Shown: positions 12,612 through 50,530 of the stretch, one piece after another
How the letters are laid out: each line of letters begins with the position of its first letter
How positions within the stretch are numbered: the first letter of the stretch is position 1
Assembly: GCA_964035575.1 (NCBI GenBank)
Contig: OZ037838.1
Coordinates: 806,001-870,000, forward strand
DNA: 64,000 nucleotides
Direction: 5' to 3'
From: Rhynchopus sp. YZ270_cl-10
Lineage: Eukaryota > Euglenozoa > Diplonemea > Diplonemida > Diplonemidae
Program-made: the position numbers and the translations under genes
The notes under the pieces: model-generated
What the model saw: only the letters and a program-made list of their open reading frames with translations
Database searches by the model: none
Told to the model about the DNA's origin: nothing

Positions 12612-13754
12612 ATGATGGATGTGACCTTTGTGCTGGAAGAGTCAGGCGTGACTGCGACAGTGGAGGTGCCGTGCGAGGCGGACGTTGCAGCGGCAAAGGA
12701 GGTTGCGTGCACGGCGCTTGCTGTCTCGCCTGCGTCTGTCGAGATGCGCATCGGCACGCAGGTGCTGGAGGGGACGTGCCGTCTGCAGGACACTGCGTTT
12801 GATGCAGGGGTGCAGGTTGTGCTTGCCTGTCCTCGCTTTGCCTACATCAAGTGTCCTGCTGAGTACACTGCAACTCATGTGCAAAGCTTGTCACTGTCGC
12901 GTTGTGGAACGCTGTGCGTCCATAGGGGGATGAGGAGTCGGTATGTTGACGGCTTCGACACAGAAACCTTCGACACTGTCTTTGAGTTCAAAATGGACAC
13001 TAACCTGAACACGGCACCGCCTGCGATCTCGCAGTGCAAGACACGTTGCTATCTGGCGTGTAATGATTACCTTCTCAAGGTTGCGCTTCCGGGTGGGGAG
13101 GTGGTCCGCAAAGTCGACGTCCCCTCGTACGCAGTGTTCGCGTGTGGCAATGTTGTTGTCTCGAAGGGCAAAGACGGCGTCTCTGTGTATGACGAAGACC
13201 TGACGTTGCTCCGCTCTCTCTCGCATGGCAGGCAACTAGGGTGCTGGAAGGTGGCAGTGTCTGACTGTGGTGGGTGGGTGATCACCTCCTCCTGGAAGGA
13301 GAAGAAGGCACGTCTGTGGGATGTGAACACAGGTGAAGCTGTGGCATGTGTGCCTGCGGATGAAAAGTGGGGTAGCGTGGCGCTTTCACGGTCTGCCTCT
13401 GTCTTTGCTGTAGGGTGCTTTGGCAACGTGCAGCTCTATGATTGGAGTGGTGTGGCTCTTCGCAGGATTGATATGGATGGGGATGGGGGTGTTGAGGTCA
13501 TACACTTCACCCCGTGTGGGAAGTACCTTGTGGTGGGGATACGTTTTGCAACGGAATCCGACGATGACGAAGCTTATGAGGATTACAATACACAACTGCA
13601 CCAGTATGATGTGGCGACCATGTCCCGTGTGCATGTGATACCGCAAACCTTTGGAGGGTACTTTGCGATATCGCCGTGTTCACGTGTTGGTGTGGCTATG
13701 CAATCAGATAGCGTCATTGTGATGAGACATCTGCACCCACACAACAGTGAGTGA
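12612..13754 (+). CDS. Ubl-WD40 array copy 1
   Basis: This 380-residue protein starts at the first of two adjacent ATGs. Residues 2-73 form a ubiquitin-like fold by pattern: two strands (DVTFVLEESGVTATVEVP), a helix (ADVAAAKEVACTAL), and a RIGTQVLEGTCRLQDTAF segment aligned with KQLEDGRTLSDYNI. There is no terminal Gly-Gly, so it is probably not cleaved or conjugated. About seven blades follow, beginning LSLSRCGTLC, AISQCKTRCYLAC, VFACGNVVVS, VAVSDCGGWVITSS, VALSRSASVFAV, IHFTPCGKYLVV and FAISPCSRV. Blade 4 has the canonical ARLWDVNTGEAV end. Blade 6 holds an acidic insert (ESDDDEAYEDY). Type I leader, alpha 3' flank. A protein-binding adaptor role is inferred; partners are unknown. Confidence 0.88.
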   Translation: MMDVTFVLEESGVTATVEVPCEADVAAAKEVACTALAVSPASVEMRIGTQVLEGTCRLQDTAFDAGVQVVLACPRFAYIKCPAEYTATHVQSLSLSRCGTLCVHRGMRSRYVDGFDTETFDTVFEFKMDTNLNTAPPAISQCKTRCYLACNDYLLKVALPGGEVVRKVDVPSYAVFACGNVVVSKGKDGVSVYDEDLTLLRSLSHGRQLGCWKVAVSDCGGWVITSSWKEKKARLWDVNTGEAVACVPADEKWGSVALSRSASVFAVGCFGNVQLYDWSGVALRRIDMDGDGGVEVIHFTPCGKYLVVGIRFATESDDDEAYEDYNTQLHQYDVATMSRVHVIPQTFGGYFAISPCSRVGVAMQSDSVIVMRHLHPHNSE

Positions 13755-14020
13755 TGTGTGACCAGGGGAGGGGAGGGGAGAGTAGTGATCAATAACCCAG
13801 GGTGCCAGCGAAAAAAAACCCAAGACCCTCAAAACACCCCAAGAAACACCCCTTTTAGCCCTGTTGCTGCTTTTCTCTTGTTTGCCTGCCACAGGTCGCC
13901 CACCTCACACGCTGCCCATGCGGTGCTCTGGTGTGGGTGACAGATCGCGATGCCGAGTGTTGCTTTCCATTCGTCACCTCTCAACGAGAACCCTGCCCTG
14001 TTGCAGGAATACGTATGATT
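13755..14020 (+). repeat. Alpha-type 3' flank of the array
   Basis: The sequence after the stop (TGTGACCAGGGGAGGGGAGG, then GATCAATA, then CCCAAGACCCTCAAAACACC) recurs after the copies ending at 16000, 18501, 20300, 35897, 39135 and 50530, with variable length. From about 13905 it overlaps a relative of the type II leader (ACGCTGCCCATGCGGTGCTC). Confidence 0.75.
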
Positions 14021-14290
14021 TAGCACCATGTGGATTGGCAAATGGTGTGGCAGCGAACGGAGTACCTGAAGCTCACAACTCTGCTGCCTTCATTGCCTCA
14101 AGTCACTTTCTTTTCGTTGTTTACCTAGCCTGTTCAAGAAAGCCATATCTGGGGGTTGGGCAGGGTAGCCTCTCGTTCTTGGAAAAAACATCAAAGTTCT
14201 GGATTTATGTTCTCATTCCCCCCCCTTTTTTTTTTGATGGGGTTTCGGGTTTTCCGAACTCGACCCTCACTGTAGTGGGGTCATTTTTTT
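14021..14290 (+). repeat. Duplicated segment R-C, copy 1
   Basis: About 260 bp nearly identical to 27381-27642, beginning CACCATGTGGATTGGCAAAT. The second copy lies directly upstream of the coatomer zeta gene. It has only short open frames. From 14291 to 14680 nothing gene-like is seen apart from a GC-rich hairpin near 14555-14600. Confidence 0.75.
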
Positions 14291-14680
14291 TTGGAAAAAT
14301 GGACAAGTTCTTGACTGTTACAAATTATGGTCATCATGTACCGTTTTTCCACCCACCTATCCGAACCGAACACAGCCCATTTGTCAATTCCGCCCAATTT
14401 TATTCAACTACACCCAATCACATGCACCACCAGCACAGCTCAGATTTTTTTGAGGAAGGCTTGCCACGGGGTGACCTGTTTTGCTTGCTCACACGGGAGG
14501 GGTAAGGGTCCAGCCTCTGAGCTGGAGTCAAACTGGAGACGCAACTAGAGGGTGTAACGATACCCGCTTTTCGGGTGTGTCACCCCTCGAAACGCGGGTG
14601 GCTGCATGAAAAAGAAGTGGCACACATTTTTTCCACTTGGTAACCCGGGGGAGGGACTGCATGCCTTCTTCTCACCTTTG

Positions 14681-14866: not shown

Positions 14867-16000
14867 ATGATGGATGTGACCTTTGTGCTGGAAGAGTCAG
14901 GCGTGACTGCGACAGTGGAGGTGCCGTGCGAGGCGGACGTTGCAGCGGCAAAGGAGGTTGCGTGCACGGCGCTTGCTGTCTCGCCTGCGTCTGTCGAGAT
15001 GCGCATCGGCACGCAGGTGCTGGAGGGGACGTACCGTCTGCAGGACACTGCCTTTGGTGCAGGAGTGCAGGTTGTGCTTGCCCACCCTCACTTGGCTGAC
15101 ATCAAGTGTCCTGCTGAGTGCAGTGTAGAGGTGCTAACTGGAACGCAGTGGATGTTTGTACATCGCTTTTCGCTGTCTCCTTGTGGAGCACTCTGCCTCT
15201 GTACACATAAGCAAGGCTCTGTCACCGGCCTCGATACAGAAACCTTCAGCCCTGCCTTCAAGTTCAAAGTAGACATTGTGATGTGCGGTGCGCCTGCCAT
15301 CTCGCAGTGCAAGACACGCTGCTACCTGGCGTGCAAGGAAGTCCTTCTCGGGGTTGCGCTTCCGGGTGGGGAGGTGGTCCGCAAAGTCGACGTCCCCTCG
15401 TACGAAGTGTTCGCGTGCGGCAGTGTTGTTGTCTCAAAAGGCAATGACGGCGTCTCTGTGTATGACGAAGACCTGATGTTGCTCCGCTCTCTCTCGCACG
15501 AAGAGTGTTGTAACGTGGCAGTGTCGGACTGTGGTGGGTGGGTGATCACCTCCTCTGAGAAGGAGAAGAACGTACGTCTGTGGGATGTGAACACAGGTGA
15601 AGCTGTGGCATGTGTGCCTGCGAGTGGGTGGTGTCTCGTGGCGCTTTCACGGTCTGCTTCTGTCTTTGCTGTGGCGGGGGTGGGAACCAGCGTGCACCTC
15701 TATGATTGGAGTGGTGCGGCTCTTCGCAGTATTGATGTGGACGGGTATGGCGACCGCATGCAGTTCGCCCCGTGTGGGAAGTACCTTCTGGTGCAGGTAT
15801 TTGATTCGGAAGATGAAGATGATAGTGATAACAATGCACGCCTGCAGCAGTATGATGTGGCGACCACGTCCTGTGTGCGTGTGCTGCTGGATACCTACGG
15901 TGAGTCATTTGCGATATCGCCATGTTCACGCGTTGTTGTGATTATGGAACCCTATGGCGTTATTGATACAAGACATCTGTACCCACACAACAGTGAGTGA
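14867..16000 (+). CDS. Ubl-WD40 array copy 2
   Basis: This 377-residue protein starts with two ATGs. The Ubl is as in copy 1 apart from GTYRLQDTAFGAGV and AHPHLADIK at its end. Blade 1 is the most unusual of the intact set: it reads FSLSPCGALCLCTHKQG where others have LSLSRCGTLCV, and the following strand is ETFSPAFKFKVD in place of ETFDTVFSFEVD. The blade 6 insert is strongly acidic (DSEDEDDSDNNA), and the 3' end of blade 6 reads VRVLLDTYGES. Type I leader and alpha 3' flank, as in its left neighbour, suggesting these two are a tandem pair. Confidence 0.88.
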   Translation: MMDVTFVLEESGVTATVEVPCEADVAAAKEVACTALAVSPASVEMRIGTQVLEGTYRLQDTAFGAGVQVVLAHPHLADIKCPAECSVEVLTGTQWMFVHRFSLSPCGALCLCTHKQGSVTGLDTETFSPAFKFKVDIVMCGAPAISQCKTRCYLACKEVLLGVALPGGEVVRKVDVPSYEVFACGSVVVSKGNDGVSVYDEDLMLLRSLSHEECCNVAVSDCGGWVITSSEKEKNVRLWDVNTGEAVACVPASGWCLVALSRSASVFAVAGVGTSVHLYDWSGAALRSIDVDGYGDRMQFAPCGKYLLVQVFDSEDEDDSDNNARLQQYDVATTSCVRVLLDTYGESFAISPCSRVVVIMEPYGVIDTRHLYPHNSE

Positions 16001-17436: not shown

Positions 17437-18501
17437 ATGGATGTGACCTTTGTGCTGGAAGAGTCAGGTGTGACTGCGACAGTGGAGGTGCCGTGCGAGG
17501 CGAAGGTTGCAGCGGCAAAGGAGGTTGCGTGCACGGCGCTTGCTGTCTCGCCTGCGTCTGTCGAGATGCGCATCGGCACGCAGGTGCTGGAGGGGACGTG
17601 CCGTCTGCAGGACACTGCGTTTGATACAGGGGTGCAGGTTGTGCTTGCCTGTCCTCGCTTTGCCGACATCAAGTGTCCTGCTGAGTACACAGCAACGCAT
17701 AAGGCAACCTTGTCGCTGTCGCGTTGTGGAACGCTCTGCGTCTATGTTTGTGATAGGAACGTTGTTGGCTTCGACACAGAAACCTTCGACACTGTCTTCT
17801 CGTTTGAAGTGGACACTATCGTGTTCGGTCTGCCTGCCATCTCGCAGTGCAAGACACGCTGCTACCTGGCGTGTGGGGATTACCTTCTTAAGGTTGCGCT
17901 TCCGGGTGGGGAGGTGCTCCGCAAAGTCGACTGCGCTTCGAGGTCGGTGTTCGCGTGTGGCGATGTTGTTGTCTCAAAGGTCCCAGACGGTGTCTCTGTG
18001 TATGACGAAGACCTGACGTTGCTCCGCTCTCTCTCGCACGAACAGTGTTATGACCTGGCAGTGTCAGACTGTGGTGAGTGGGCGATCACAGCCAGGCAGG
18101 ACAACGCACGTCTGTGGGATGTGAACACAGGAGAAGCTGTGGCATGTGTGCCTGCGGAGGGGTGGTGCGAAGGAGTGGCGCTTTCACGGTCTGCCTCTGT
18201 CTTTGCTGTGGGGAATTCTAGCAGTGTACGCCTCTATGATTGGAGTGGTGCGGCTCTTCGCAGTGTTGATGTGGGTGAGGATGTGGATGACATGCAGTTC
18301 ACCCCGTGTGCGAAGTACCTTGTGGTAAAGAATGTACGCGTGCTGCACCAGTATGATGTGGCGACCATGTCCTGTGTGCATGTGATACCGCAAACCTTAG
18401 CTGTGTCCTTTGTGATATCGCCGTGTTCACGTGTTGTTGTGGCCATGCAATCAAATGGCGTCATTGTGACGAGACATCTGTACCCACACAACAGTGAGTG
18501 A
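17437..18501 (+). CDS. Ubl-WD40 array copy 3
   Basis: This 354-residue protein starts at a single ATG (MDVTF); the open frame extends upstream but the leader is shared, non-coding sequence. The Ubl has EAKV where copies 1 and 2 have EADV. Blade 1 carries LCVYVCDRNVVGFD, a block shared with copy 9 (34806). Blade 6 lacks the acidic insert and goes straight from VVKNVR to VLHQYDV, as copy 15 does, making these the shortest members. Alpha 3' flank, interrupted at 18527 by a small element. Confidence 0.88.
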   Translation: MDVTFVLEESGVTATVEVPCEAKVAAAKEVACTALAVSPASVEMRIGTQVLEGTCRLQDTAFDTGVQVVLACPRFADIKCPAEYTATHKATLSLSRCGTLCVYVCDRNVVGFDTETFDTVFSFEVDTIVFGLPAISQCKTRCYLACGDYLLKVALPGGEVLRKVDCASRSVFACGDVVVSKVPDGVSVYDEDLTLLRSLSHEQCYDLAVSDCGEWAITARQDNARLWDVNTGEAVACVPAEGWCEGVALSRSASVFAVGNSSSVRLYDWSGAALRSVDVGEDVDDMQFTPCAKYLVVKNVRVLHQYDVATMSCVHVIPQTLAVSFVISPCSRVVVAMQSNGVIVTRHLYPHNSE

Positions 18502-18526
18502 TGTGTGACCAGGGGAGGGGAGGGGA

Positions 18527-19166: not shown

Positions 19167-20300
19167 ATGGATGTGACCTTTGTGCTGGAAGAGTCAGGTG
19201 TGACTGCGACAGTGGAGGTGCCGTGCGAGGCGAAGGTTGCAGCGGCAAAGGAGGTTGCGTGCACGGCGCTTGCTGTCTCGCCTGCGTCTGTCGAGATGCG
19301 CATCGGCACGCAGGTGCTGGAGGGGACGTGCCGTCTGCAGGACACTGCGTTTGATGCAGGGGTGCAGGTTGTGCTTGCCTGTCCTCGCTTTGCCGACATC
19401 AAGTGTCCTGCTCAGTACAATTTGAAGTGGTCATCTATGAACGTAACGATCTCGCTGTCGCGTTGTGGAACGCTCTGCCTTGTTGGTGATGGTGGAAATA
19501 TTGTTGGCTTCGACACAGAAACCTTCGACACTGTCTTCTCGTTTGAAGTGGAAACTGACGGGAACACGGCTCCGCCTGCCATCTCGCGGTGCAAGACACG
19601 CTGCTACCTGGCGTGTTGGGAGGAAGGCCTTCTCGAGGTTGCGCTTCCGGGTGGGGAGGTGATCCGCAAAGTCGAGGGATTCTCGTACTCAGTGTTCGCG
19701 TGTGGCGGTGTTGTTGTCTCGAAGGGCACAGACTGCGCCTCTGTGTATGACGAAGACCTGACGTTGCTCCGCTCTCTCTCGCACGAAGGCTGCACGTGTG
19801 TGTCGGTGTCGGACTGTGGTGGGTGGGTGATCACCTCCTCCGAAGTCGACAGCAACGTACGTCTGTGGGATGTGAACACAGGTGAAGTTGTAGCATGTGT
19901 GCATGCGGGTTCGTGGTGTGCAATGAAGCTTTCACGGTCTGCCTCAGTCTTTGCTGTGGTCTTTGCTGAGGCGGGGAACGATACCGTGCAGCTCTATGAT
20001 TGGAGTGGTGCGGCTCTTCGCAGTGTTGATGTGGGTGGGGAAGTTGGGAGCATGCAGTTCACCCCATGTGGGAAGTACCTAGTGGTGGGGATACGTGTTG
20101 CGGAATCTGATGATGACGAAGATGGTATGTATTACAATACACACCTGCACCAGTATGATGTGGCGACCATGTCCCGTGTGCGTGTGATACCGCAATGCTC
20201 AGGTGCATTTGCGATATCGCCGTGTTCACGTGTTGTTGTGGCTCTGCAACGAGATACCTACATTGTGACGAGTCATCTGTACCCACACAACAGTGAGTGA
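19167..20300 (+). CDS. Ubl-WD40 array copy 4
   Basis: This 377-residue protein starts at a single ATG like copy 3, with EAKV in the Ubl helix. Blade 1 begins CPAQYNLKWSSMNVTISLSR, a private sequence. Blade 2 has YLACWEEGLLEV. Blade 5 contains a short duplication (SVFAVVFAEAGNDTVQLYD) compared with SVFAV in most copies; a related AVVFAEAGNN stretch is encoded in broken copy 13. The blade 6 insert is AESDDDEDGMYYN. Alpha 3' flank, short. Confidence 0.88.
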   Translation: MDVTFVLEESGVTATVEVPCEAKVAAAKEVACTALAVSPASVEMRIGTQVLEGTCRLQDTAFDAGVQVVLACPRFADIKCPAQYNLKWSSMNVTISLSRCGTLCLVGDGGNIVGFDTETFDTVFSFEVETDGNTAPPAISRCKTRCYLACWEEGLLEVALPGGEVIRKVEGFSYSVFACGGVVVSKGTDCASVYDEDLTLLRSLSHEGCTCVSVSDCGGWVITSSEVDSNVRLWDVNTGEVVACVHAGSWCAMKLSRSASVFAVVFAEAGNDTVQLYDWSGAALRSVDVGGEVGSMQFTPCGKYLVVGIRVAESDDDEDGMYYNTHLHQYDVATMSRVRVIPQCSGAFAISPCSRVVVALQRDTYIVTSHLYPHNSE

Positions 20301-20472: not shown

Positions 20473-21618
20473 ATGATGGATGTGACCTTTGTGCTGGAAG
20501 AGTCAGGCGTGACTGCGACAGTGGAGGTGCCGTGCGAGGCGAAGGTTGCAGCGGCAAAGGAGGTTGCGTGCACGGCGCTTGCTGTCTCGCCTGCGTCTGT
20601 CGAGATGCGCATCGGCACGCAGGTGCTGGAGGGGACGCGCCGTCTGCAGGACACTGCGTTTGATGCAGGGGTGCAGGTTGTGCTTGCCCGCCGCTTTGCC
20701 TACATCAAGTGTCCTGCTGACCATAGCGTGCGTGCAGACAACTTGTCACTGTCGCGTTGTGGAACGCTCTGCGTCTATATACGCGGGAGTGGGCATGTTG
20801 GTGGCTTCGACACAGAAACCTTCGACACTGTCTTCTCGTTTGAAGTGGACACTGATGTGTGCGGTCGGCCTGCCATCTCGCAGTGCAAGACACGCTGCTA
20901 CCTGGAGTGTTGGGATTGCCTTCTTAAGGTTGCGCTTCCGGGTGGGGAGGTGCTCCGCAAAGTCGAGGGCACCTCGCACGCAGTATTCGCGTGTGGTGGT
21001 GTTGTTGTCTCCCAAGGCACAGACGGCGTCTCTGTGTATGACGAAGACCTGACGTTGCTCCGCTCTCTCTCGCATGAGCAGTGCAGGAAGATGGCAGTGT
21101 CGGACTGTGGTGGGTGGGTGATCACCTCCTCCGAAACAGAGTTGAAGGCACGTCTGTGGGATGTGAACACAGGAGAAGCTGTGGCATGTGTGCCTGCGGA
21201 TGACACAGAGTGGTGTGCAGTTGCGCTTTCACGGTCTGCCTCTGTCTTTGCTGAGGCGGGGAACAACACCGTGCACCTCTATGATTGGAGTGGTGCGGCT
21301 CTTCGCAGTGTTGGCGTGGGTGGGGATGTTGAGGACATGCAGTTCACTCCGTGTGGGAAGTACTTTGTGGTCAAGTTGCATGTTCCGGAATGCATATATG
21401 ATGCAGATGATGACGAAAAAATGATGGCTGCTGGCTACAATGTGCAACTCCACCAGTATGATGTGGCGACCATGTCCTGTGTGTGTGTGATCCCGCAAAG
21501 CTCAGATGGGAGATTTGCGATAGCACCATGTTCACGTGTGGTTGTGTTAGGGTGTGACGAAAGCAACACAACAAGCGGCATTGCAACAAAGCATCTGTAC
21601 CCACACAACAGTGAGTGA
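20473..21618 (+). CDS. Ubl-WD40 array copy 5
   Basis: This 381-residue protein is the longest array member and starts with ATGATG. The Ubl ends ARRFAYIKCPAD, so it lacks the Pro of the PRF variant. Blade 1 reads VYIRGSGHVGGFD. The blade 4 entry HEQCRKMAVSDC is nearly the same as in broken copy 13, and so is the blade 6 stretch KLHVPECIYD. The acidic insert is DADDDEKMMAAGYN. The last blade has LGCDESNTTSGIATKH, a longer loop typical of copies with the beta 3' flank. It is the first beta-type copy in the array. Confidence 0.88.
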   Translation: MMDVTFVLEESGVTATVEVPCEAKVAAAKEVACTALAVSPASVEMRIGTQVLEGTRRLQDTAFDAGVQVVLARRFAYIKCPADHSVRADNLSLSRCGTLCVYIRGSGHVGGFDTETFDTVFSFEVDTDVCGRPAISQCKTRCYLECWDCLLKVALPGGEVLRKVEGTSHAVFACGGVVVSQGTDGVSVYDEDLTLLRSLSHEQCRKMAVSDCGGWVITSSETELKARLWDVNTGEAVACVPADDTEWCAVALSRSASVFAEAGNNTVHLYDWSGAALRSVGVGGDVEDMQFTPCGKYFVVKLHVPECIYDADDDEKMMAAGYNVQLHQYDVATMSCVCVIPQSSDGRFAIAPCSRVVVLGCDESNTTSGIATKHLYPHNSE

Positions 21619-24229: not shown

Positions 24230-25351
24230 ATGATGGATGTGATCTTTGTGCTGGAAGAGTCAGGCGTGACTGCGACAGTGGAGGTGCCGTGCGAGGCGGA
24301 CGTTGCAGCGGCAAAGGAGGTTGCGTGCACGGCGCTTGCTGTCTCGCCTGCGTCTGTCGAGATGCGCATCGGCACGCAGGTGCTGAAGGGGACGTGCCGT
24401 CTGCAGGACACTGCGTTTGATTCAGGGGTGCAGGTTGTGCTTGCCTGTCCTCGCTTTGCCGACATCAAGTGTCCTGCTGAGTATAGTGGGTTTGCAGAAT
24501 ACTTATCACTGTCGCGTTGTGGAACGCTCTGCGTCTATAGTAGCAGGGGTGGGGGTGTTGGCAGTTTCGATACAGAAACCTTCAAGACTGCCTTCGCATT
24601 CACAATGGACCTTCGTGTGTACGGTCGGCCTGCCATCTCGCAGTGCAAGACACGCTGCTACCTGGCGTGCAGGAATAATGGCCTTCTCGAGGTTGCGCTT
24701 CCGGGTGGGGAGGTGCTCCGCAAAGTCGACGGCCCTTCGTACGCAGTGTTCCCCAGTGGCAATGTTGTTGTCTCGAAGGGAAACGACGGCGTCTCTGTGT
24801 ATGACGAAGACCTGACGTTGCTCCGCTCTCTCTCGCACAAAGGGTGCTGGGACGTAGCAGTGTCGGACTGTGGTGGGTGGGTGATCACCTCCTCCAACAG
24901 TGAGAAGGAAGCACGTCTGTGGGATGTGAACACAGGTGAAGCTGTGGCATGTGTGCCTGCGGATGAGTGGCGTGCAGTGGCGCTTTCACGGTCTGCCTCA
25001 GTCTTTGCTGGAAACGACTCTTACCACCACGTACACCTCTATGATTGGAGTGGTGCGGCTCTTCGCAGTGTTGATGTGGATGGGGGTGTCGACGTCTTGC
25101 GCATGCAGTTCACCCCGTGTGGGAAGTACCTTGTGTTGGGGATACGGGTTGTGGCACCTGATTGCAGGGCATACTGGTGCCTGCGCCAGTACGATGTGGC
25201 GACCATGTCCTGTGTGCATGTGATCCCGCAAACCTATGGTGGGCCATTTGCGATATCACCGTGTTCACGTGTGGTTGTGTTAGGGTGTGACGAGAGAGGT
25301 ACAACAAGCGGCATTGTAACAAGGCATCTGTACCCACACAACAGTGAGTGA
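24230..25351 (+). CDS. Ubl-WD40 array copy 6
   Basis: This 373-residue protein starts with ATGATG. The Ubl has two private changes, DVIFVLEE and VLKGTC. Blade 1 begins AEYSGFAEYLSLSRCGTLCV, identical in protein to copy 11 (41630), then diverges to YSSRGGGVGSFD. Blade 3 has VFPSGNVVVS in place of VFACG. In blade 6 the acidic insert is replaced by RVVAPDCRAYWCLRQYDV, with almost no acidic residues. Beta 3' flank. With most of its upstream leader missing, expression may differ from its siblings. Confidence 0.87.
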   Translation: MMDVIFVLEESGVTATVEVPCEADVAAAKEVACTALAVSPASVEMRIGTQVLKGTCRLQDTAFDSGVQVVLACPRFADIKCPAEYSGFAEYLSLSRCGTLCVYSSRGGGVGSFDTETFKTAFAFTMDLRVYGRPAISQCKTRCYLACRNNGLLEVALPGGEVLRKVDGPSYAVFPSGNVVVSKGNDGVSVYDEDLTLLRSLSHKGCWDVAVSDCGGWVITSSNSEKEARLWDVNTGEAVACVPADEWRAVALSRSASVFAGNDSYHHVHLYDWSGAALRSVDVDGGVDVLRMQFTPCGKYLVLGIRVVAPDCRAYWCLRQYDVATMSCVHVIPQTYGGPFAISPCSRVVVLGCDERGTTSGIVTRHLYPHNSE

Positions 25352-26236: not shown

Positions 26237-27369
26237 ATGATGGATGTGACCTTTGTGCTGGAAGAGTCAGGCGTGACTGCGACAGTGGAGGTGCCGTGCG
26301 AGGCGAAGGTTGCAGCGGCAAAGGAGGTTGCGTGCACGGCGCTTGCTGTCTCGCCTGCGTCTGTCGAGATGCGCATCGGCACGCAGGTGCTGGAGGGGAC
26401 GTGCCGTCTGCAGGACACTGCGTTTGATGCAGGGGTGCAGGTTGTGCTTGCCTGTCCTCGCTTTGCCGACATCAAGTGTCCTGCTGAGTACAGTCTGCAG
26501 CAGCAAGCAGACAGCTTGTCGCTGTCGCGTTGTGGAACGCTGTGCGTCCATAAGGGGATTAGCAGTGCGCGTGTTGTTGGCTTCGACACAGAAACCTTCG
26601 ACACTGTCTTCTCGTTCGAAGTAGACACTAACGTGAGCACGGCTCCGCCTGCCATCTCGCAGAGCAAGACACGCTGCTACCTGCCGTGTTGGGAGGAAGG
26701 CCTTCTCGAGGTTGCGCTTCCGGGTGGGGAGGTGGTCCGCAAAGTAGACGGCCACTCGGGGTCAGTGTTCGCGTGTGGCAATGTTGTAAGGGCAAAGACG
26801 GTGTCTCTGTGTATGACGAAGACCTGACGTTGCTCCGCTCTCTCTCGCACGAAGGGTGCACGTGTGTGTCGGTGTCGGACTGTGGTGGGTGGGTGATCAC
26901 CTCCTCCTACAAGGAGAACAACGCACGTCTGTGGGATGTGAACACAGGTGAAGCTGTGGCATGTGTGCCTGCGGATGACACGGCCTGGCGAGAGTATGTG
27001 GCGCTTTCACGGTCTGCCTCTGTCTTTGCTGTGGAGGGCTCTGACAACGTGCAGCTCTTTGATTGGAGTGGAGCGGCTCTTGGCAGGATTGATGTGGGTG
27101 GGAGTGTGGAGGTGGCTGTGCAGTTCACCCCGTGTGGGAAGTACCTTGTGGTGGGCGTGGGAGTTGCGGAAGATGAACGTTACGACGATGAGGATGCTGG
27201 CAATCTTAAGCTGCACCAGTATGATGTGGCGACGATGGCCTGTGTACTTGTGATCCCGGACTTCACCGGTCTGTCATTTGCGATATCGCCGTGTTCGAGT
27301 GTGGTCGTGTTTGCGTTGTACGGCAGCACCAACATTGTAACAAGACATCTGTACCCCCACAACGAGTGA
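26237..27369 (+). pseudogene. Ubl-WD40 array copy 7, frameshifted
   Basis: The frame opens at ATGATG and is normal through the Ubl and blades 1-2 (QQQADSLSLSRCGTLCVHKG, then AISQSKTRCYLPCWEEG). Near 26776, after GTGGCAATGTTGT, 7 bp present in siblings (TGTCTCG) are missing. The frame shifts and stops at 26827. Downstream of the break the normal frame continues undamaged to HLYPHNE at 27369, so the loss looks recent. The last codons lack the usual Ser. The 3' side is neither alpha nor beta but joins segment R-C directly. Confidence 0.85.
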
Positions 27370-27380
27370 TGTTCATGCTT

Positions 27381-38001: not shown

Positions 38002-39135
38002 ATGATGGATGTGACCTTTGTGCTGGAAGAGTCAGGCGTGACTGCGACAGTGGAGGTGCCGTGCGAGGCGGACGTTGCAGCGGCAAAGGAGGTTGCGTGC
38101 ACGGCGCTTGCTGTCTCGCCTGCGTCTGTCGAGATGCGCATCGGCACGCAGGTGCTGGAGGGGACGTGCCGTCTGCAGGACACTGCGTTTGATGCAGGGG
38201 TGCAGATCGTGCTTGCGTGCCCTCGCTTTGCCGACATCAAGTGTCCTGCTGAGTACGATGTACAGGACATTTTAAAGATGACCGCGAGGTCGTTGAGGCT
38301 GTCGCGTTGTGGAAAGCTCTGCGTCTATAGTAATGGAAGTAGTCATGTTGGCGGCTTCGACACAGAAACCTTCGACACTGTCTTCTCATTTGAAGTGGAC
38401 AATGATGTGTGCGGTCGGCCTGCCATCTCTCGGTGCAAGACACGCTGCTACCTGGCGTGTTTGGACCACGTTCTCGAGGTTGCGCTTCCGGGTGGGGAGG
38501 TGCTCCGCAAAGTCGAGGGCTACTCGTACTCAGTGTTTGCGTGTGGTGGTGTTGTTGTCTCGAAGGGCAGAGACGGGTTCTCTGTGTATGACGAAGACCT
38601 GACGTTGCTCCGCTCTCTCTCGCACGAAGAGTGTTATAACGTGATGGTGTCGGACTGTGGTGGGTGGGTGATCACCTCCTCCACGAGGGAGAAGAACGCA
38701 CGTCTGTGGGATGTGAACACAGGAGAAGCTGTGGCATGTGTGCCTGCGGGTAGGTGGGGTAGAGTGGCGCTTTCACGGTCTGGCTCTGTCTTTGCTGTGG
38801 TGGGGGAGACAAGCAACGTGCACCTCTATGATTGGAGTGGTGCGGCTCTTCGCAGTGTTGATGTGGGTGGGGAAGTTGGGAGCATGCAGTTCACCCTGTG
38901 TGGGAAGTACCTTGTGGTGGGGATACATGTTCCGAAATCTGATACCGAATGCACAGATGCTGAATATTACAATACACCCCTGCACCAGTATGATGTGGCG
39001 ACCATGTCCTGTGTGCGTGTGATACCGCAAAGCTCAGGTGCATTTGCGATATCGCCGTGTTCACGTGTTGTTGTGGTATTGGAATATGATGGAGACATTG
39101 TAACAAAGCATCTGTACCCACACAACAGTGAGTGA
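38002..39135 (+). CDS. Ubl-WD40 array copy 10
   Basis: This 377-residue protein starts with ATGATG. The Ubl has EADV and VQIVLACPRF. Blade 1 has the distinctive block YDVQDILKMTARSLRLSRCG followed by LCVYSNGSSHVGGFD. This block is identical at DNA level over about 120 bp (38251-38372) to copy 15 (49691-49812), although the sequence on either side differs. The insert in blade 6 is PKSDTECTDAEYYNTP. Blade 5 has VVGETSNVHLYD. Alpha 3' flank followed by the second orphan 3' end. Confidence 0.88.
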   Translation: MMDVTFVLEESGVTATVEVPCEADVAAAKEVACTALAVSPASVEMRIGTQVLEGTCRLQDTAFDAGVQIVLACPRFADIKCPAEYDVQDILKMTARSLRLSRCGKLCVYSNGSSHVGGFDTETFDTVFSFEVDNDVCGRPAISRCKTRCYLACLDHVLEVALPGGEVLRKVEGYSYSVFACGGVVVSKGRDGFSVYDEDLTLLRSLSHEECYNVMVSDCGGWVITSSTREKNARLWDVNTGEAVACVPAGRWGRVALSRSGSVFAVVGETSNVHLYDWSGAALRSVDVGGEVGSMQFTLCGKYLVVGIHVPKSDTECTDAEYYNTPLHQYDVATMSCVRVIPQSSGAFAISPCSRVVVVLEYDGDIVTKHLYPHNSE

Positions 39136-41629: not shown

Positions 41630-42760
41630 ATGATGGATGTGACCTTTGTGCTGGAAGAGTCAGGCGTGACTGCGACAGTGGAGGTGCCGTGCGAGGCGGA
41701 CGTTGCAGCGGCAAAGGAGGTTGCGTGCACGGCGCTTGCTGTCTCGCCTGCGTCTGTCGAGATGCGCATCGGCACGCAGGTGCTGGAGGGGACGTGCCGT
41801 CTGCAGGACACTGCGTTTGGTGCAAGGGTGCAGGTTGTGCTTGCCCGCCCTCGCTTTGCCGACATCAAGTGTCCTGCTGAGTATAGTGGGTTTGCAGAAT
41901 ACTTATCACTGTCGCGTTGTGGAACGCTCTGCGTTTTTTCGGACTTGACTGGGGAGTTAGGTGGCTTCGACACAGAAACATTCGACACCGTCTTCTCGTT
42001 TGTAATATATAATGGTGTGTGCGGTCCGCCTGCCATCTCGCAGTGCAAGACACGCTGCTACCTGGCGTGTTGGGATTGCCTTGTCGAGGTTGCGCTTCCG
42101 GGTGGGGAGGTGCTCCGCAAAGTCGACGGCTACTCGTACGCAGTGTTCGCGTGTGGCAGTGTTGTTATCTCCCAGGGCACAGGCGGCGTCTCTGTGTATG
42201 ACGAAGACCTGACGTTGCTCCGCTCTCTCTCGCACGAAGGCTGCACCTGTGTGTCGGTGTCGGACTGTGGTGGGTGGGTGATCACCTCCTCCTACAGTGA
42301 GCATAACGCACGTCTGTGGGATGTGAACACAGGTGAAGCTGTGGCATGTGTGCCCGTGTCAGGGGTCAATGTGGCGCTTTCACGGTCTGTCTCGGTCTTT
42401 GCTGTGGCAGGGAACAACACCGTGCACCTCTATGATTGGAGTGGTGCGGCTCTTCGCAGTTTTGATGTGGGTGGGGATATTGAGAGCATGCAGTTCACCC
42501 CGTGTGGGAAGTACCTTGTGGTAATGATGCGTGTTGCGGACTGCATACATGATACAGATGATGAAGAATATGATGGTTACAATGTACACCTGCACCAGTT
42601 CGATGTGGCAACCATGTCCTGTGTGCATGTGATACCGCTAACCTATGGGAAATTTGCGATATCACCATGTTCACGTGTCGTTGTGTTACGGTATGAGGAC
42701 GAAAGCGGTACAACAAGCGGCATTATAACAAGGCATCTGTACCCACACAACAGTGAGTGA
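41630..42760 (+). CDS. Ubl-WD40 array copy 11
   Basis: This 376-residue protein starts with ATGATG. The Ubl ends GARVQVVLARPRF, with a private Arg. It is a clear mosaic. EYSGFAEYLSLSRCGTLCV is shared with copy 6. FSDLTGELGGFDTETFDTVF is shared with broken copy 14. The end (HQFDVATM, then VIPLTYG, then RYEDESGTTSGI) is shared with copy 8. Private parts are FVIYNGVCGPPAIS and, in blade 5, ALSRSVSVFAVAGNN. The acidic insert is DTDDEEYDGYN. Type III leader, beta 3' flank. Confidence 0.88.
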   Translation: MMDVTFVLEESGVTATVEVPCEADVAAAKEVACTALAVSPASVEMRIGTQVLEGTCRLQDTAFGARVQVVLARPRFADIKCPAEYSGFAEYLSLSRCGTLCVFSDLTGELGGFDTETFDTVFSFVIYNGVCGPPAISQCKTRCYLACWDCLVEVALPGGEVLRKVDGYSYAVFACGSVVISQGTGGVSVYDEDLTLLRSLSHEGCTCVSVSDCGGWVITSSYSEHNARLWDVNTGEAVACVPVSGVNVALSRSVSVFAVAGNNTVHLYDWSGAALRSFDVGGDIESMQFTPCGKYLVVMMRVADCIHDTDDEEYDGYNVHLHQFDVATMSCVHVIPLTYGKFAISPCSRVVVLRYEDESGTTSGIITRHLYPHNSE

Positions 42761-43090: not shown

Positions 43091-43099
43091 AGTACGGGC

Positions 43100-43268: not shown

Positions 43269-44372
43269 ATGATGGATGTGACCTTTGTGCTGGAAGAGTC
43301 AGGCGTGACTGCGACAGTGGAGGTGCCGTGCGAGGCGGACGTTGCAGCGGCAAAGGAGGTTGCGTGCACGGCGCTTGCTGTCTCGCCTGCGTCTGTCGAG
43401 ATGCGCATCGGCACGCAGGTGCTGGAGGGGACGTGCCGTCTGCAGGACACTGCGTTTGATGCAGGGGTGCAGGTTGTGCTTGCCCGCCGCTTTGCTGACA
43501 TCAAGTGTCCTGCTGAGTACAGTATCCAGGGCATTGTTCAAAGTTTCTCACTGTCGCGTTGTGGCACGCTCTGCCTCATCGTGACTGAAGATGTGGGTAT
43601 TGCTGGCGTCGGATTCGATACAGTAACCTTCAACACCGCCTTCTCGTTTAAACCTGTTTGCCTCACAGCACCGCCCATCTCACGGTGCAAGACACGCTGC
43701 TACCTCGCGTCTGGGGGTGATGTACGCATGGTTGCGCTTCCGGGTGGGGAGGTACTTCGCAAAGTTACAGGACGCTCGACAACAGTGTTCGCGTGTGGTG
43801 GTGTTATTCTCTCCCAAGGCACAGACGGCGTCTCTGTGTATGACGAAGACCTGACGTTGCTCCGCTCTCTCTCACACAAGGGGTGCAGTAGGGTGGCAGC
43901 GTCGGACTGTGGTGGGTGGGTGATCAGCTACTCCTGGGTGGAGAAGAAGGCACGTCTGTGGGATGTGAACACAGGTGAAGCTGTGGCATGTGTGGAAAGC
44001 ATGCCTCCCACGGCGTGGGAGGTAAGGCTAGCGCTCTCGCGGCCTGCCTCTGTCTTTGCTGTGGGTTGCTCTCAAGAAGTGCAGCTCTATGACTGGAGTG
44101 GTGTGGCTCTTGGCAGCATTAAAAAGGAGGATTACCATGTCTATGGCGTGCAGTTCACTCCCTGTGGGAAGTATGTCGTCGTTAATTTTACGTGTGCATC
44201 AAGGCGTGAGGACCCTGCACTCCTGCACCAGTACGATATGTCTACCATGTCCTGTGTGCGTGTTATACCAAAATGCTGCGGTGAGTTTGCGATATCACCG
44301 TGTTCGCGTGTGGTTATGTTTGAGTCAGCAGAAAGTGCCTTCCTTGTGACAAGGCATCTGTACCCCTACTGA
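43269..44372 (+). CDS. Ubl-WD40 array copy 12, most divergent
   Basis: This 367-residue protein starts with ATGATG. The Ubl is standard, yet the propeller has drifted most. Examples are FSLSRCGTLCLIVTEDVGIA, FSFKPVCLTAPPISRCKTRC, YLASGGDVRMVALPGGEV, VACVESMPPTAWEVRLALSR and SIKKEDYHVYGVQFTP. The blade 6 insert is not acidic (TCASRREDPALL). The C-terminus is HLYPY, lacking HNSE. The 3' flank is neither alpha nor beta. A normal Ubl joined to an old propeller supports homogenisation of the 5' part by conversion. Confidence 0.87.
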   Translation: MMDVTFVLEESGVTATVEVPCEADVAAAKEVACTALAVSPASVEMRIGTQVLEGTCRLQDTAFDAGVQVVLARRFADIKCPAEYSIQGIVQSFSLSRCGTLCLIVTEDVGIAGVGFDTVTFNTAFSFKPVCLTAPPISRCKTRCYLASGGDVRMVALPGGEVLRKVTGRSTTVFACGGVILSQGTDGVSVYDEDLTLLRSLSHKGCSRVAASDCGGWVISYSWVEKKARLWDVNTGEAVACVESMPPTAWEVRLALSRPASVFAVGCSQEVQLYDWSGVALGSIKKEDYHVYGVQFTPCGKYVVVNFTCASRREDPALLHQYDMSTMSCVRVIPKCCGEFAISPCSRVVMFESAESAFLVTRHLYPY

Positions 44373-44624: not shown

Positions 44625-46696
44625 ATGGATGTGACCTTTGTGCTGGAAGAGTCAGGCGTGACTGCGACAGTGGAGGTGCCGTGCGAGGCGGACGTTGCAG
44701 CGGCAAAGGAGGTTGCGTGCACGGCGCTTGCTGTCTCGCCTGCGTCTGTCGAGATGCGCATCGTCACGCAGGTGCTGGAGGGGACGTGCCGTCTGCAGGA
44801 CACTGCGTTTTGTGCAGGGGTGCAGATCGTGCTTGCCCGCCCTCGCTTTGCCGACATCAAGTGTCCTGCTGAGTACACTGCACAGATGTGATGATCTTAT
44901 CGCTGTCGCATTGTGGAACACTCTGCATCTATTATGACTGGAGTGGGCATGTTGGCGGCTTCGACACAGAAACCTTTGACACTGTCTTCTCGTTCGAAGT
45001 GGACAATGAGGTGCACGGTGCGCCTGCCATCTCGCAGTGCAAGACACGCTGCTACCTGGCGTGTTGGAGTAAAGGCCTTCTCGAGGTTGCGCTTCCGGGT
45101 GGGGAGGTGCTCCGCAAAGTCGATGGCACTCCGCACGCAGTGTTCGCGTGTGGCGGTGTTATTCTCTCCCAAGGCACAGACGGCGTCTCTGTGTATGACG
45201 ATGACCTGACGTTGCTCCGCTCTCTCTCGCACAAGCAGTGCAGGAAGATGGCAGTGTCGGACTGTGGTGGGTGGGTGATCACCTCCTCCGAAGGGAAAGA
45301 GGCACGTCTGTGGGATGTGAACACAGGTGAAGTTGTGGCATGTGTGCCTGCGGAGGGGTGGTGCGCAGTAGTGGCACTTTGCAGACTATTGTGCAGCGAA
45401 GCTTTCACGGTCTGCTTCTGTCTTTGCTGTGGTCTTTGCTGAGGCGGGGAACAACAACGTGCACCTCTATGATTGGAGTGGTGCGGCTCTTCGCAGTGTT
45501 GATGTGGGTGGGATTGTCGAGAGCATGCAGTTCACCCCATGTGGGAAGTACTTTGTAGCCAAGCTGCATGTTCCGGAATGCATATGGGTCGATGCGTAAA
45601 ACCCCCCCTCCCCGGGTTTTGGGGCTGTAAGTGAAATTAAGGCAAAATATTACACCAACAATACATTTTTTTATTGCACAACGGGGCACTTTTATTTCAC
45701 AACCCGGGGGTCTGCTAAACGCTTAGTTCTCAAGGCTTACGTTCATCGTATCAACTTCCCTTTGGTGTTGGGGTTATCTTCATTCAAATTTTTCTCTTTT
45801 CGAAATATCTTTATCTCCTGTATCACAACCTTGCAGAGTTGCTGATGTCCGACCTAAACACCATTGAGGCAGATGGAGTGGCCACTCCACAGGCAGCACT
45901 GTTCCCGTAGGTGGGCACACCCCACCCCCACCAGCCGCATCCGCATCCATCTAAGGTGAAACACGTGAAAAAATCCCTCAGATGGTCAAAATACCCAAAT
46001 TTTGCGTTTTTTTGCATTTTTCGGTACCCCAAGACCCCACCCAGGAGTCGAAATTTTCCGGGGAAAAAATTTTTTTTTTCCCCGATTTTTCGGATTTTTG
46101 CTAAGGCGCTGGCCCATACAAACCGGTTTTTTGTACAGAAAATGACCGGGGAATAAATATGTGATGCTCAAAACATCAAAATTCTTGCTTTATTTGCATT
46201 TTTGGGTCCATCTGAGCCCAAAAAAAAATTTTTTTTTCGGCTGAAAATTTTGTCTTTGCGAAAAAAAAAAAAAAAATCGAGCAGTGAAATAAAGAGTGAA
46301 ATAAAGAGTGAAATAAAGAAATAAAGCCTTTTTTATTTCACTGCCGTTTTTATTTTTCTACAGGAATTTGTTAGGGGAGTGAAATTAAAGTGCCCCGACG
46401 TGCAATAAAAAAAAATCAAAAATCGTAGTGAAATTTAGGGGAGGGGGGGTTTTACGCATTCACCCATATATGATACAGATGATGACGAAGAAATGATTGC
46501 TAGTGGCTACAATGTGCAACTCCACCAGTATGATGTGGCGACCATGTCTTGTGTGCGTGTGATCCCGCAAAGCTCAGATGGGACATTTACGATATCACCA
46601 TGTTCGCGTGTGATTGTGTTAGTAGGGGATGAGGACGAAAGCGGTACAACAAGCGGCATTGTAACAAGGCATCTGTACCCACACAACAGTGAGTGA
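44625..46696 (+). pseudogene. Ubl-WD40 array copy 13, broken and transposon-split
   Basis: Starts at a single ATG with a normal Ubl (private changes: RIVTQVLEG and FCAGVQIV). The frame is lost near 44880 just after the Ubl; the blade frame resumes at about 44888 and is lost again near 45370-45440 in blade 5. Blade 6 is split by an 880-bp DNA element at 45586-46465. The rest (YDTDDDEEMIASGYN onward to HLYPHNSE) is intact downstream. Over its surviving parts it is closest to copy 5. Several breaks plus an insertion mark it as the oldest pseudogene of the array. Beta 3' flank. Confidence 0.85.
45586..46465. mobile_element. Non-autonomous TIR element, ATAT target duplication
   Basis: The ends are GGGTCGATGCGTAAAACCCC and GGGTGAATGCGTAAAACCCC (reverse complement of the right end), matching over 28 bp with two differences. 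ATAT flanks both sides (45582-45585 and 46466-46469). Copy 5 shows the uninterrupted GCATATATGAT site. Subterminal inverted blocks share TTATTGCAC and CGGGGCACTTT with TTTCAC. Near 46287-46325 GAGTGAAATAAA repeats three times. There is no transposase frame, so it is a passenger element that landed in an already related gene copy. Confidence 0.82.
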
Positions 46697-47519: not shown

Positions 47520-48655
47520 ATGATGGATGTGACCTTTGTGCTGGAAGAGTCAGGCGTGACTGCGACAGTGGAGGTGCCGTGCGAGGCGGACGTTGCAGCG
47601 GCAAAGGAGGTTGCGTGCACGGCGCTTGCTGTCTCGCCTGCGTCTGTCGAGATGCGCATCGGCACGCAGGTGCTGGAGGGGACGTGCCGTCTGCAGGACA
47701 CTGCGTTTCGTGCAGGGGTGCAGGTTGTGCTTGCCCGCCGCTTTGCCAACATCAAGTGTCCTGCTGAGTATAGTGAGCAGAATACTTGTCGCTGTCGCGT
47801 TGTGGAACGCTCTGTGTTTTTTCGGACTTGACTGGGGAGTTAGGTGGCTTCGACACAGAAACCTTCGACACTGTCTTCTCGTTTTTATTGGATAATGATG
47901 CGTGCGGTCCGCCTGCCATCTCGCAGTGCAAGACACGCTGCTACCTGCCGTGTTGGAAAGACTTACGCAAGGTTGCGCTTCCGGGTGGGGAGGTGGTCCG
48001 CAAAGTCGAGGGCACCTCAGACTCAGTGTTCGCGTGTGGCGGTGTTGTTGTCTCGAAGGGCAAAGACGGCGTCTCTGTGTATGACAAAGACCTGACGTTG
48101 CTCCGCTCTCTCTCGCACGAAGGGTGCTGGGGTATGGCAGTGTCGGACTGTGGTGGGTGGGTGATCACCTCCTCCTCCATTGAGAACACGCGTCTGTGGG
48201 ATGTGAACACAGGAGAAGCTGTGGCATGTGTGCCTGCGGATGCCACAGACTGGTGTTGCGTGGCGCTTTCACGGTCTGCCTCTGTCTTTGCTGTGGAGGG
48301 CTCTGGCAACGTGCACCTCTTTGATTGGAGTGGTGCGGCTCTTCGCAGTGTTGATGTGGGTGGGGATGTCACGGGCATGCAGTTCACCCCATGTGGGAAG
48401 TACCTTGTGGTCAAGGTGATTGTTGCGGAAGACATATCTGATACATATGATGAAGAATCTGAAGAATATGATGGTTACAATGCACATCTCCACCAGTATG
48501 ATGTGGCAACCATGTCCCGTGTGCATGTGATCCCGCAAACCTGTGGTGGGACATTTGCGATATCACCATGTTCACGTGTGGTTGTGTTAGGGTGTGACGA
48601 AAGTACAACAAGCGGCATCGTAACAAGGCATCTGTACCCACACAACAGTGAGTGA
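47520..48655 (+). pseudogene. Ubl-WD40 array copy 14, frameshifted after Ubl
   Basis: Starts with ATGATG and a normal Ubl (private FRAGVQ and ARRFANIK). At about 47771, where copies 6 and 11 read GTGGGTTTGCAGAATAC, this copy has a net loss of four bases and the frame stops at 47831. The blade frame is otherwise open from 47786 to HLYPHNSE at 48655. It contains FSDLTGELGGFD (as copy 11), FLLDNDACGPPAIS and YLPCWKDLRKVALPGG (as copy 15), and the longest acidic insert (AEDISDTYDEESEEYDGYN). As the rest is intact the lesion looks recent. A downstream start within blade 1 would give a propeller without Ubl, which cannot be excluded. Confidence 0.82.
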
Positions 48656-49260
48656 TGTTTCGCGAGGGGTGTGAGGGTGGTGACTTTTTTCTGACACACG
48701 AGTCATATTCATGTTTCAGGTTTTATTTGCTTACTTTTCCATGAGGATCCAATCCGTTAAACTGAAACACAAACCGGCCGACAAGCGGTTGTGTACCTTC
48801 CCCGTTCACAGTACGGGCAAGCCGCGAGGTTTCTTTTCACATCTCCTGTGTATTTGCAGGGTATCGTCATTGTTTGTATCGTTTTTTGTTGACTCTTTTT
48901 TTGTGAAAGATGTGTTGGACGATCTATGAACCGTGAGAGATGTTTTTACTAGCTCTCAGTAGCGTCTCACAGGTTCTCACTAACTCTCCCTAAGTTATGA
49001 GGTGTCTTTTTTTACTTTGTCGTGTGCCTGTAAGCTCTTGTGTCTCCACAGATGTCCACATTTATTTTTTTTTTGGAGAGTAAAAATTTATTTGGAGACA
49101 TGCCTTTGCCAAAACACATCTCTTTTTGTTGTAAAATAGACAATGTATATTATGTGGTGGTCAAAAATGCAAAGCTCCTTCGCCAATGGATTTATTGGGT
49201 GTGTGTTATACCGGGACAAGTGGTCAGATCACTTAGGTGTTTTCAACCTTCCCCCTTCAC
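48656..49260 (+). repeat. Truncated beta flank and orphan type III leader
   Basis: The beta flank is shortened (internal loss after GTGGTGACTTTTTTCTGACA). An orphan leader core with TATTTGCAGGGTATCG (AG at 48858-48859) lies without a Ubl start downstream. The stretch at 48900-49230 appears unique and holds no supported gene. Confidence 0.6.
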
Positions 49261-49441
49261 CACAGTACGGGCAAGCCGCGAGGTTTCTTTTCACATCTCC
49301 TGTGTATTTGCAGGGTATCTTCAAATTGCTCGCTTGTTCAGAGTTTTTTGAAACACGTAATTAACCCACCAACCTTCTTATTTGTCATTGCGAAGTGACA
49401 CCACCAACCATCACATCAAACACAACAGACCCCTTAACAAT
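49261..49441 (+). promoter_or_regulatory. Type III leader of copy 15
   Basis: TGTGTATTTGCAG with AG at 49312-49313, 128 nt before the ATG. Confidence 0.6.
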
Positions 49442-50530
49442 ATGATGGATGTGACCTTTGTGCTGGAAGAGTCAGGCGTGACTGCGACAGTGGAGGTGCC
49501 GTGCGAGGCGGACGTTGCAGCGGCAAAGGAGGTTGCGTGCACGGCGCTTGCTGTCTCGCCTGTGTCTGTCGAGATGCGCATCGGCACGCAGGTGCTGGAG
49601 GGGACGTGCCGTCTGCAGGACACTGCGTTTGATTCAGGAGTGCAGGTTGTGCTTGCCCGCCCTCGCTTGGCCGACATCAAGTGTCCTGCTGAGTACGATG
49701 TACAGGACATTTTAAAGATGACCGCGAGGTCGTTGAGGCTGTCGCGTTGTGGAAAGCTCTGCGTCTATAGTAATGGAAGTAGTCATGTTGGCGGCTTCGA
49801 CACAGAAACCTTCTACACTGTTTTCTCGTTTTTATTGGATACTGGTGTGTGCGGTCCGCCTGCCATCTCGCAGTGCAAGACACGCTGCTACCTGCCGTGT
49901 TGGAAAGACTTACACAAGGTTGCGCTTCCTGGTGGGGAGGTGCTCCGCAAAGTCGACGGCCCCTCGTACGCAGTGTTCGCGTGTGGCAGTGTTGTTGTCT
50001 CACGAGGCGATGAAGGCGTCTCTGTGTATGACGAAGACCTGACGTTGCTCCGCATTCTCTCGCATGAGCAGTGCAGGAATGTGGCAGTATCGGACTGTGG
50101 TGGGTGGGTGATCACCTCCTCCAACAAGGAGAAGAACGCACGTCTGTGGGATGTGAACACAGATGTTGATGTGGCATGTGTGCCTGTTGAGGGGTGGTGT
50201 TGCATGGAGCTTTCACGATCTGCCTCTGTCTTTGCTGTGGTGGGCTCTGGCAACGTGCACCTCTATGATTGGAGTGGTGTGGCTCTTCGCTCTCTGGGCA
50301 GGGATGGGGATGTCGAGTGCATGCAGTTCACCCCGTGTGGGAAGTACCTTGTGGTAAAGGGAACCCACGTGCTCCACCAGTATGATGTGGCAACCATGTC
50401 CTGTGTGCGTTGGGTCCCGCAAGCCTATGATACGTCATTTGTGATATCGCCGTGTTCACGTGTTCTTGTGGCTACGCAACCAAATGGCGCCATTGCGACA
50501 AAGCATCTGTACCCACACAACAGTGAGTGA
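49442..50530 (+). CDS. Ubl-WD40 array copy 15
   Basis: This 362-residue protein starts with ATGATG. The Ubl has private SPVSVEMRI and FDSGVQ and ends ARPRLADIK. Blade 1 carries the YDVQDILKMTARSLRLSRCG block identical to copy 10. It switches, just after GGFDTETF, to FLLDTGVCGPPAIS and YLPCWKDLHKVALPGG as in copy 14. Blade 4 ends NARLWDVNTDVDVACVP, losing the GEA of the canonical strand. Blade 5 has SLGRDGDVECMQFTP. The acidic insert is absent (VVKGTHVLHQYDV), as in copy 3. Type III leader, alpha flank. It is the clearest recombinant of the family. Confidence 0.88.
   Translation: MMDVTFVLEESGVTATVEVPCEADVAAAKEVACTALAVSPVSVEMRIGTQVLEGTCRLQDTAFDSGVQVVLARPRLADIKCPAEYDVQDILKMTARSLRLSRCGKLCVYSNGSSHVGGFDTETFYTVFSFLLDTGVCGPPAISQCKTRCYLPCWKDLHKVALPGGEVLRKVDGPSYAVFACGSVVVSRGDEGVSVYDEDLTLLRILSHEQCRNVAVSDCGGWVITSSNKEKNARLWDVNTDVDVACVPVEGWCCMELSRSASVFAVVGSGNVHLYDWSGVALRSLGRDGDVECMQFTPCGKYLVVKGTHVLHQYDVATMSCVRWVPQAYDTSFVISPCSRVLVATQPNGAIATKHLYPHNSE

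Follow-up and report, generated by a model that had tools for sequence, protein, structure and literature searches.

A tandem gene family in Rhynchopus that joins a putative ubiquitin-like domain to a predicted WD40 propeller with one hypervariable face

Most of the closest described systems, as far as the cited passages go, combine a constant module with a diversified one. In Podospora anserina, the NWD/HNWD genes, among them those for HET-D and HET-E, encode NACHT-WD40 NLRs that serve in non-self recognition (PMC1805685, PMC12222747). The zebrafish NLR-B30.2 family comprises nearly 400 genes, most of which reside on one chromosome arm (PMC4852459). In nematodes, F-box/MATH adaptors of ubiquitin ligases are greatly expanded, show positive selection in their substrate-binding domains and have been linked to the response to pathogens (PMC5392922, citing Thomas 2006). 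A WD40 propeller and a SUMO-like domain occur together in one protein of the ubiquitin system, WDR48/UAF1 (PMC5735123). Here, we describe a gene family of the diplonemid Rhynchopus sp. YZ270_cl-10 whose products appear to consist of an N-terminal ubiquitin-like domain (Ubl) followed by a WD40 propeller. The analysis centers on a tandem array within a stretch of 64,000 nucleotides (nt), hereafter called the window, which corresponds to positions 806001-870000 of contig C6 (OZ037838.1, 2.05 Mb) in a genome of 152.4 Mb and 126 contigs.

Fifteen copies of the gene, 12 intact and 3 broken, are arranged head to tail on the plus strand between 12.6 and 50.5 kb of the window (Table 1). A 300-nt portion from the 5' part of the gene is repeated 15 times, with start-to-start spacings of 1.3 to 6.9 kb. 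Counting of copies and starts thus confirms the tandem array of 15 paralogues, 12 of them intact and three broken, reported in a preliminary description of this DNA; the observation was correct but understated. A 40-nt pattern from the Ubl region, which fits all 62 examined copies with at most one mismatch, yielded 467 matches in the genome at up to three mismatches, a figure that includes broken copies and stands for places and not for intact genes; the reversed control gave 0. A protein search with copy 1, in which 108 of 861 candidates were scored, returned 110 matches, among which two copies appear as two halves each; 103 of the 110 reside on C6, spanning 196 kb to 1.96 Mb. Among the matches listed for C6, orientation changes with position, from minus for every match below 663 kb to plus for every match above 729 kb. 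In the protein database, 415 proteins matched copy 1 at an expectation value (E) of 0.01 or better, and the best 120 of the 415 are all without a name. These 120 proteins are not an independent sample: the database contains an identical protein for 51 of the 62 genome copies, and P0123 matches a site of this genome at 100% identity. All DNA statistics given below refer to 62 distinct coding sequences out of about 467 places, mostly the best-scoring matches to copy 1, and this choice may bias the set towards intact, similar genes. The 15 copies in the window are a small sample of a family with several hundred members, not all of which are intact.

Residues 83-373 were confidently modelled as a seven-bladed WD40 propeller. 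In the predicted structure, seven four-stranded blades form a closed ring with a velcro closure, in which the N-terminal strand closes the ring. In three intact copies, the Pfam model for the WD40 repeat (PF00400) reached 16.6 bits at best, below its cut-off of 27, the whole-propeller Pfam models gave weak matches that were all below their cut-offs, and no NACHT, B30.2/SPRY, F-box, BTB or SOCS domain appeared among Pfam matches up to E 1. The domain order proposed in the preliminary description, a Ubl and then about seven WD40 blades, holds as a reading of the sequence. The structure prediction that it had called for returned the closed propeller, and the N-terminal beta-grasp emerged only as a low-confidence topology with support from profiles. 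Its interpretation is thus partly supported, and it had missed the hundreds of copies mostly on one contig, the hypervariable face described next and the scattered divergent relatives.

The faces of the propeller were assigned from the strand order in the model and the WD40 convention that places the D-A and B-C loops, seven of each, on top. For the 62 genes, mean entropy lies between 1.29 and 2.85 bits in all 14 of 14 top loops and between 0.06 and 0.86 bits in all 13 of 13 bottom loops (A-B, C-D), so that the two ranges are fully separated (Mann-Whitney p 4e-21 over residues). The Ubl has a mean entropy of 0.10. The polarity persisted when loop borders were displaced by one residue and in the 120 database proteins, most of which represent these same genes. 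Within the strands, entropy is 1.64 bits at the top end and has dropped to 0.42 bits by the sixth residue; the values beyond six residues (0.70, 0.21 and 0.25) derive from only three or four residues per step. The combination of the 14 loops is distinct in 120 of 120 proteins, and each single loop occurs in 74 to 118 forms. On the basis of the modelled fold, these comparisons show that one face of the predicted propeller is hypervariable, while the opposite face and the Ubl are nearly invariant.

A second array provides a control for ordinary top-loop variability. Its members, found on C43, C91 and C14 as 23 near-full-length matches at at least 70% identity plus one fragment, share the Ubl-WD40 architecture, and 18 of the 18 that were aligned end in a CxCC tail. 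When blades are assigned visually on the WD40 pattern, the 18 sequences have a mean of 1.44 bits in the top loops of blades 5, 6, 7 and 1, which are neighbours in the ring, compared with 0.34 bits in the top loops of blades 2-4 (0.44 for the D-A loop before blade 2) and 0.23 bits in the bottom loops. Since the top loops on blades 2-4 are nearly invariant, top loops are not variable by the nature of the fold; the variability is placed.

Taking sequence patterns and analogy together, we consider it probable that the family constitutes a germline-encoded, diversified repertoire of intracellular recognition proteins. The variable top face would bind many different protein ligands that differ between copies, and through the constant Ubl all members would dock to a common partner, for which a proteasome/ubiquitin-system receptor that binds ubiquitin-like domains is the simplest candidate. 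Bound targets would then be degraded or reported. Gene conversion along the chromosome may keep handle and frame uniform, with selection keeping the loops different. By analogy with the role that families of this pattern play elsewhere, the targets would most likely be non-self proteins, whether of pathogens, prey, symbionts or mating/clonal types.

The divergence of the loops can be set against that of neighbouring DNA. In 35 chosen pairs of genes, mean differences amount to 35.4% for the loops, 6.6% for the 3' flank, 4.8% for the bottom loops, 2.2% for the Ubl and 14.4% for the strands, and the loops exceed the 3' flank in 35 of 35 pairs. Median loop divergence is 40% among 47 genes of C6. 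Neutral amplification, i.e., a rapidly multiplied repeat with unconstrained loops on a framework held by folding, could account for a ratio of nonsynonymous to synonymous divergence (dN/dS) near 1 in the loops, for a diversity that is alike at the three codon positions there and for an ordinary ratio of silent transitions to transversions (2.07). However, the loops exceed the 3' flanks about six-fold in the chosen pairs and about 3.5-fold when all alignable flanks are considered, 12 of the 15 local copies have stayed open, and blades 2-4 of the second array show almost no variation on the top face, all of which renders this explanation quite improbable. A special loop mutator was also considered and discarded: the silent transition/transversion ratio of the loops is close to those of strands (2.16) and bottom loops (2.45), with 4.97 for the Ubl, and therefore no mutator is called for.

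Patterns of silent variation bear on the maintenance of the family. At conserved codons, the Ubl has a silent diversity of 0.01-0.04 and the propeller one of 0.05-0.21, and silent diversity decreases with distance from a hypervariable column, from 0.25 at one codon to about 0.06 at six to eight codons (Spearman -0.38, p 8e-6). Among 47 genes of C6, divergence shows no dependence on how far apart two copies lie (Spearman -0.03 and 0.01), and adjacent copies resemble each other no more than distant ones do. Beyond a separation of 15 bp, correlation between sites is almost lost, with r2 near background, and the types of 5' and 3' flanks are not associated in 35 genes (both types agree in 55 of 595 pairs, where 59.7 would be expected). 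Taken together, the data fit frequent short exchanges that would spread the handle and the frame, combined with selection that would keep the loops different. Part of this pattern could also come from duplications in a star-like burst, accompanied by recurrent mutation. Linkage decay was therefore dropped as proof of gene conversion, because a star-like radiation could mimic it and a permutation test (see below) was not significant. Apparent exchange, broken copies, head-to-tail order and the dominance of one array contig would also suit a contingency or variant-switching family, in which one or few copies are expressed at once and the array acts as a sequence store. This appears highly improbable to us: in the translations, the N-terminus begins straight at the predicted first strand of the Ubl with no apparent signal peptide or membrane anchor, as judged without a predictor, and one class of 5' flank is common to 20 of 35 copies, which rather suits parallel expression.

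Several points weigh against a selected recognition repertoire. The dN/dS of the top loops, calculated from the 50 of 73 columns that were left after filtering for gaps, is only 1.11 (dN 0.62, dS 0.56), because silent differences are also high in the loops; the values for bottom loops, strands and Ubl are 0.30, 0.71 and 0.63, respectively. A high ratio within the loops was thus dropped as an argument for selection, and the excess over the neutral expectation rests on the comparison with framework and flanks. The 35 pairs were, in turn, selected to have 200 nt or more of flank that is at least 90% identical, and the yardstick is the DNA directly downstream of the stop codon, presumed to be non-coding. 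All 110 alignable 3' flanks average 11.5% divergence, and flanks too diverged for BLAST alignment are absent from both figures. As to exchange, permutation of the four-gamete test at 66 sites gave no significant sign of recombination, and the test of flank association is low in power because 20 of the 35 genes fall into one 5' class and 29 into one 3' class. Finally, 3 of the 15 local copies are broken, and part of the array is therefore not maintained.

Residues 1-75 are taken as a divergent Ubl, on evidence that comes via profiles of relatives. When a profile was built from nine N-termini of the family, array included, the best 60 of 331 matches were only ubiquitin, its fusions and variants, ISG15 and two affilins, which we take to be engineered ubiquitins. 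Single ubiquitins matched at E 2e-5 to 8e-4, mostly across the first 31-40 positions. The array sequence was left out of later profiles to avoid circularity. A profile of seven relatives found ubiquitin with 24 bits. Three more relatives were then added, and L004 is among them, chosen after its likeness to the array had been noticed, which weakens the test. The resulting profile of ten relatives, again without the array, matched array residues 2-71 at E 7.4e-8 and ubiquitin at 1.3e-5, with the best shuffle at 0.023. L004 alone scored 86 against the array N-terminus, compared with 51 for the best of 2000 shuffles. Other results count against the assignment. With the seven-relative profile, the array N-terminus was not above shuffles (10.7 bits; 2 of 2000 shuffles higher), its direct score with ubiquitin was equalled or passed by 232 of 2000 shuffles, hhalign gave a probability of 22% (E 0.00095), and Pfam returned no Ubl match for the N-terminus. 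A single-sequence PDB search with the N-terminus was uninformative. The modelled order of strands (E) and helix (H), E2-8 E14-19 H25-35 E43-47 E50-54 E69-72, comes with a predicted local distance difference test (pLDDT) score of only 29-53 for the block, and a first model of residues 1-70 (pLDDT 41-46) lacked the helix. In the translations, the Ubl passes into the propeller without a Gly-Gly, so the preliminary statement that a terminal Gly-Gly is missing stands. Its view of the Ubl as a fixed docking module stands as a reading of the sequence, with the docking itself presumed.

The same anatomy, a constant Ubl and a variable face, would also suit a repertoire of substrate receptors for regulated turnover of self proteins, with no role in defence, in which the Ubl would recruit the proteasome or a ligase and the variable face would be adapted to many proteins of the cell. 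WD40 propellers often serve as substrate receptors, and the genome contains dozens of other WD40 frames of about 400 amino acids (aa). Fixed self-targets would, however, favour conserved specificities, and none of the 120 proteins shares all 14 loops with another; the loops diverge faster than the 3' flanks, and F-box, BTB and SOCS domains were not found in the three intact copies. We therefore regard self-turnover as unlikely. The recognition repertoire that we favour may even be anticipatory and antibody-like, with about 470 germline copies, a whole face diversified by selection and very short-tract exchange, and a Ubl that hands the bound target to a common effector. We put this forward as a tentative extension, more doubtful than probable. 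If it were true, the second array, with four variable blades and a lipidation-like CxCC tail, would be a membrane-tethered branch.

Further Ubl-WD40 genes are found on C3, C8, C23, C44, C45, C58, C73, C88 and elsewhere, including one at 5099-6280 of the window. Most of the divergent relatives that were read, though not those on C45 and C73, end in CxCC or CxCS, tails reminiscent of lipid attachment. Proteins of the array family usually terminate in HNSE and carry no CxCC/CxCS tail. A superfamily profile collected 44 proteins, 16 of which (the 5099 gene included) match most of its length and fit this organism; the remaining 28 look like generic WD40 proteins. In a single-sequence database search, the 5099 gene retrieved only itself and one generic protein. 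Many long frames with strong WD40 repeats, mostly of 1,550-2,000 aa, were noted on C21, C5, C3 and further contigs, and seven long frames located on other contigs matched NACHT. NLR-like sensors may therefore exist beside the array.

Unrelated genes are interspersed among the array copies. They include an AMMECR1 homologue (31490-32104; Pfam E 2e-40) in a single open frame and a leucine-rich repeat protein (39519-41045). The broken copy at 44625 contains about 0.8-0.9 kb of unrelated DNA before its 3' end (about 45650-46480), possibly an insertion element. Two blocks 35 kb apart (16770-17312 and 52272-52777) are 98-99% identical, and the first lies directly upstream of an array copy. An open frame of 606 aa (52744-54564) has several hydrophobic membrane-like stretches and clusters of cysteines and no Pfam match. 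The pentanucleotide TGTAC is repeated about 152 times at 99% between 61318 and 62075, giving rise to long, probably spurious open frames on both strands. A prokaryotic promoter scan near copy 1 was discarded as meaningless for a eukaryote. Elsewhere in the genome, tubulin gave 68 matches over many contigs, 64 of which cover most of the domain in single frames of at least 451 aa, many with identical scores.

Table 1 Copies of the Ubl-WD40 gene and a divergent relative in the window (ORF, open reading frame).
Feature	Position in window	Strand	Length	Remarks
Divergent relative	5099..6280	+		Ubl-like N-terminus, WD40 propeller, C-terminus ...GGCKCC
Intact copy 1	12612..13754	+	380 aa	
Copy 1, putative Ubl	12612-12836	+		residues 1-75
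Copy 1, predicted propeller	12858-13730	+		residues 83-373
Intact copy 2	14867..16000	+	377 aa	
Intact copy 3	17437..18501	+	354 aa	mechanical ORF start 17083
Intact copy 4	19167..20300	+	377 aa	mechanical ORF start 19008
Intact copy 5	20473..21618	+	381 aa	
Intact copy 6	24230..25351	+	373 aa	
Broken copy	26237..27369	+		frameshift inside propeller
Intact copy 7	33175..34305	+	376 aa	
Intact copy 8	34806..35897	+	363 aa	
Intact copy 9	38002..39135	+	377 aa	
Intact copy 10	41630..42760	+	376 aa	
Intact copy 11	43269..44372	+	367 aa	without usual HNSE tail
Broken copy	44625..46696	+		more than one frame change; end estimated from repeat register
Broken copy	47520..48655	+		frame change close to propeller start
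Intact copy 12	49442..50530	+	362 aa	

How does this family compare with the described systems? Among the papers listed in literature searches, which also took in genome papers of candidate groups but not subscription papers or preprints, there was no described Ubl-WD40 family, protist WD40 expansion or hypervariable propeller. In WDR48/UAF1, the SUMO-like domain follows the propeller and does not precede it, and we know of no hypervariable face in this protein. According to the cited part of the literature, it is a conserved deubiquitinase regulator. By anatomy, the array family resembles the NWD genes, the zebrafish NLRs and the nematode adaptors, and it is not a member of any of them. The accounts cited here describe for the Podospora NWD genes a WD40 sensor propeller, concerted evolution of the framework and diversifying positions on the interaction surface (PMC1805685, PMC12222747), and the 14 of 14 hypervariable top loops point to a comparable diversification of the surface in Rhynchopus. 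The same accounts give 10 genes for the Podospora family, compared with hundreds here, and near-identical repeats within a gene, in each of which strong positive selection acts on four codons, in contrast to seven non-identical blades with 14 variable loops; NACHT and HET domains accompany the propeller in Podospora, whereas the array proteins appear to have only the Ubl. For zebrafish NLR-B30.2 genes, gene conversion is described as differing between the constant and the recognition domain, with diversity residing in the recognition module (PMC4852459), which is a further likeness. These are, however, metazoan NLRs with NACHT and B30.2 domains that recognize by B30.2 and not by WD40, and the cited part of that work mentions no Ubl. 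The nematode adaptors, as portrayed in the source cited, likewise unite a constant domain for docking to the ubiquitin system with a substrate-binding domain under selection, but they reach cullins via F-box or MATH-BTB type proteins and use other substrate domains, where Ubl docking is presumed for the array proteins. Such a division of labour is thus already known elsewhere; in our best reading, what is new is a diversified recognition repertoire on a Ubl-WD40 chassis. Since the variable face and the constant handle are delimited and numerous natural variants are at hand, the recognition targets become a directly testable question. Animals, plants and fungi are known to possess large repertoires of diversified recognition proteins, and the array would add a different chassis to these, in a family comparable in gene number to zebrafish NLR-B30.2 and with an unusually clean division into a constant and a variable face within a single domain.

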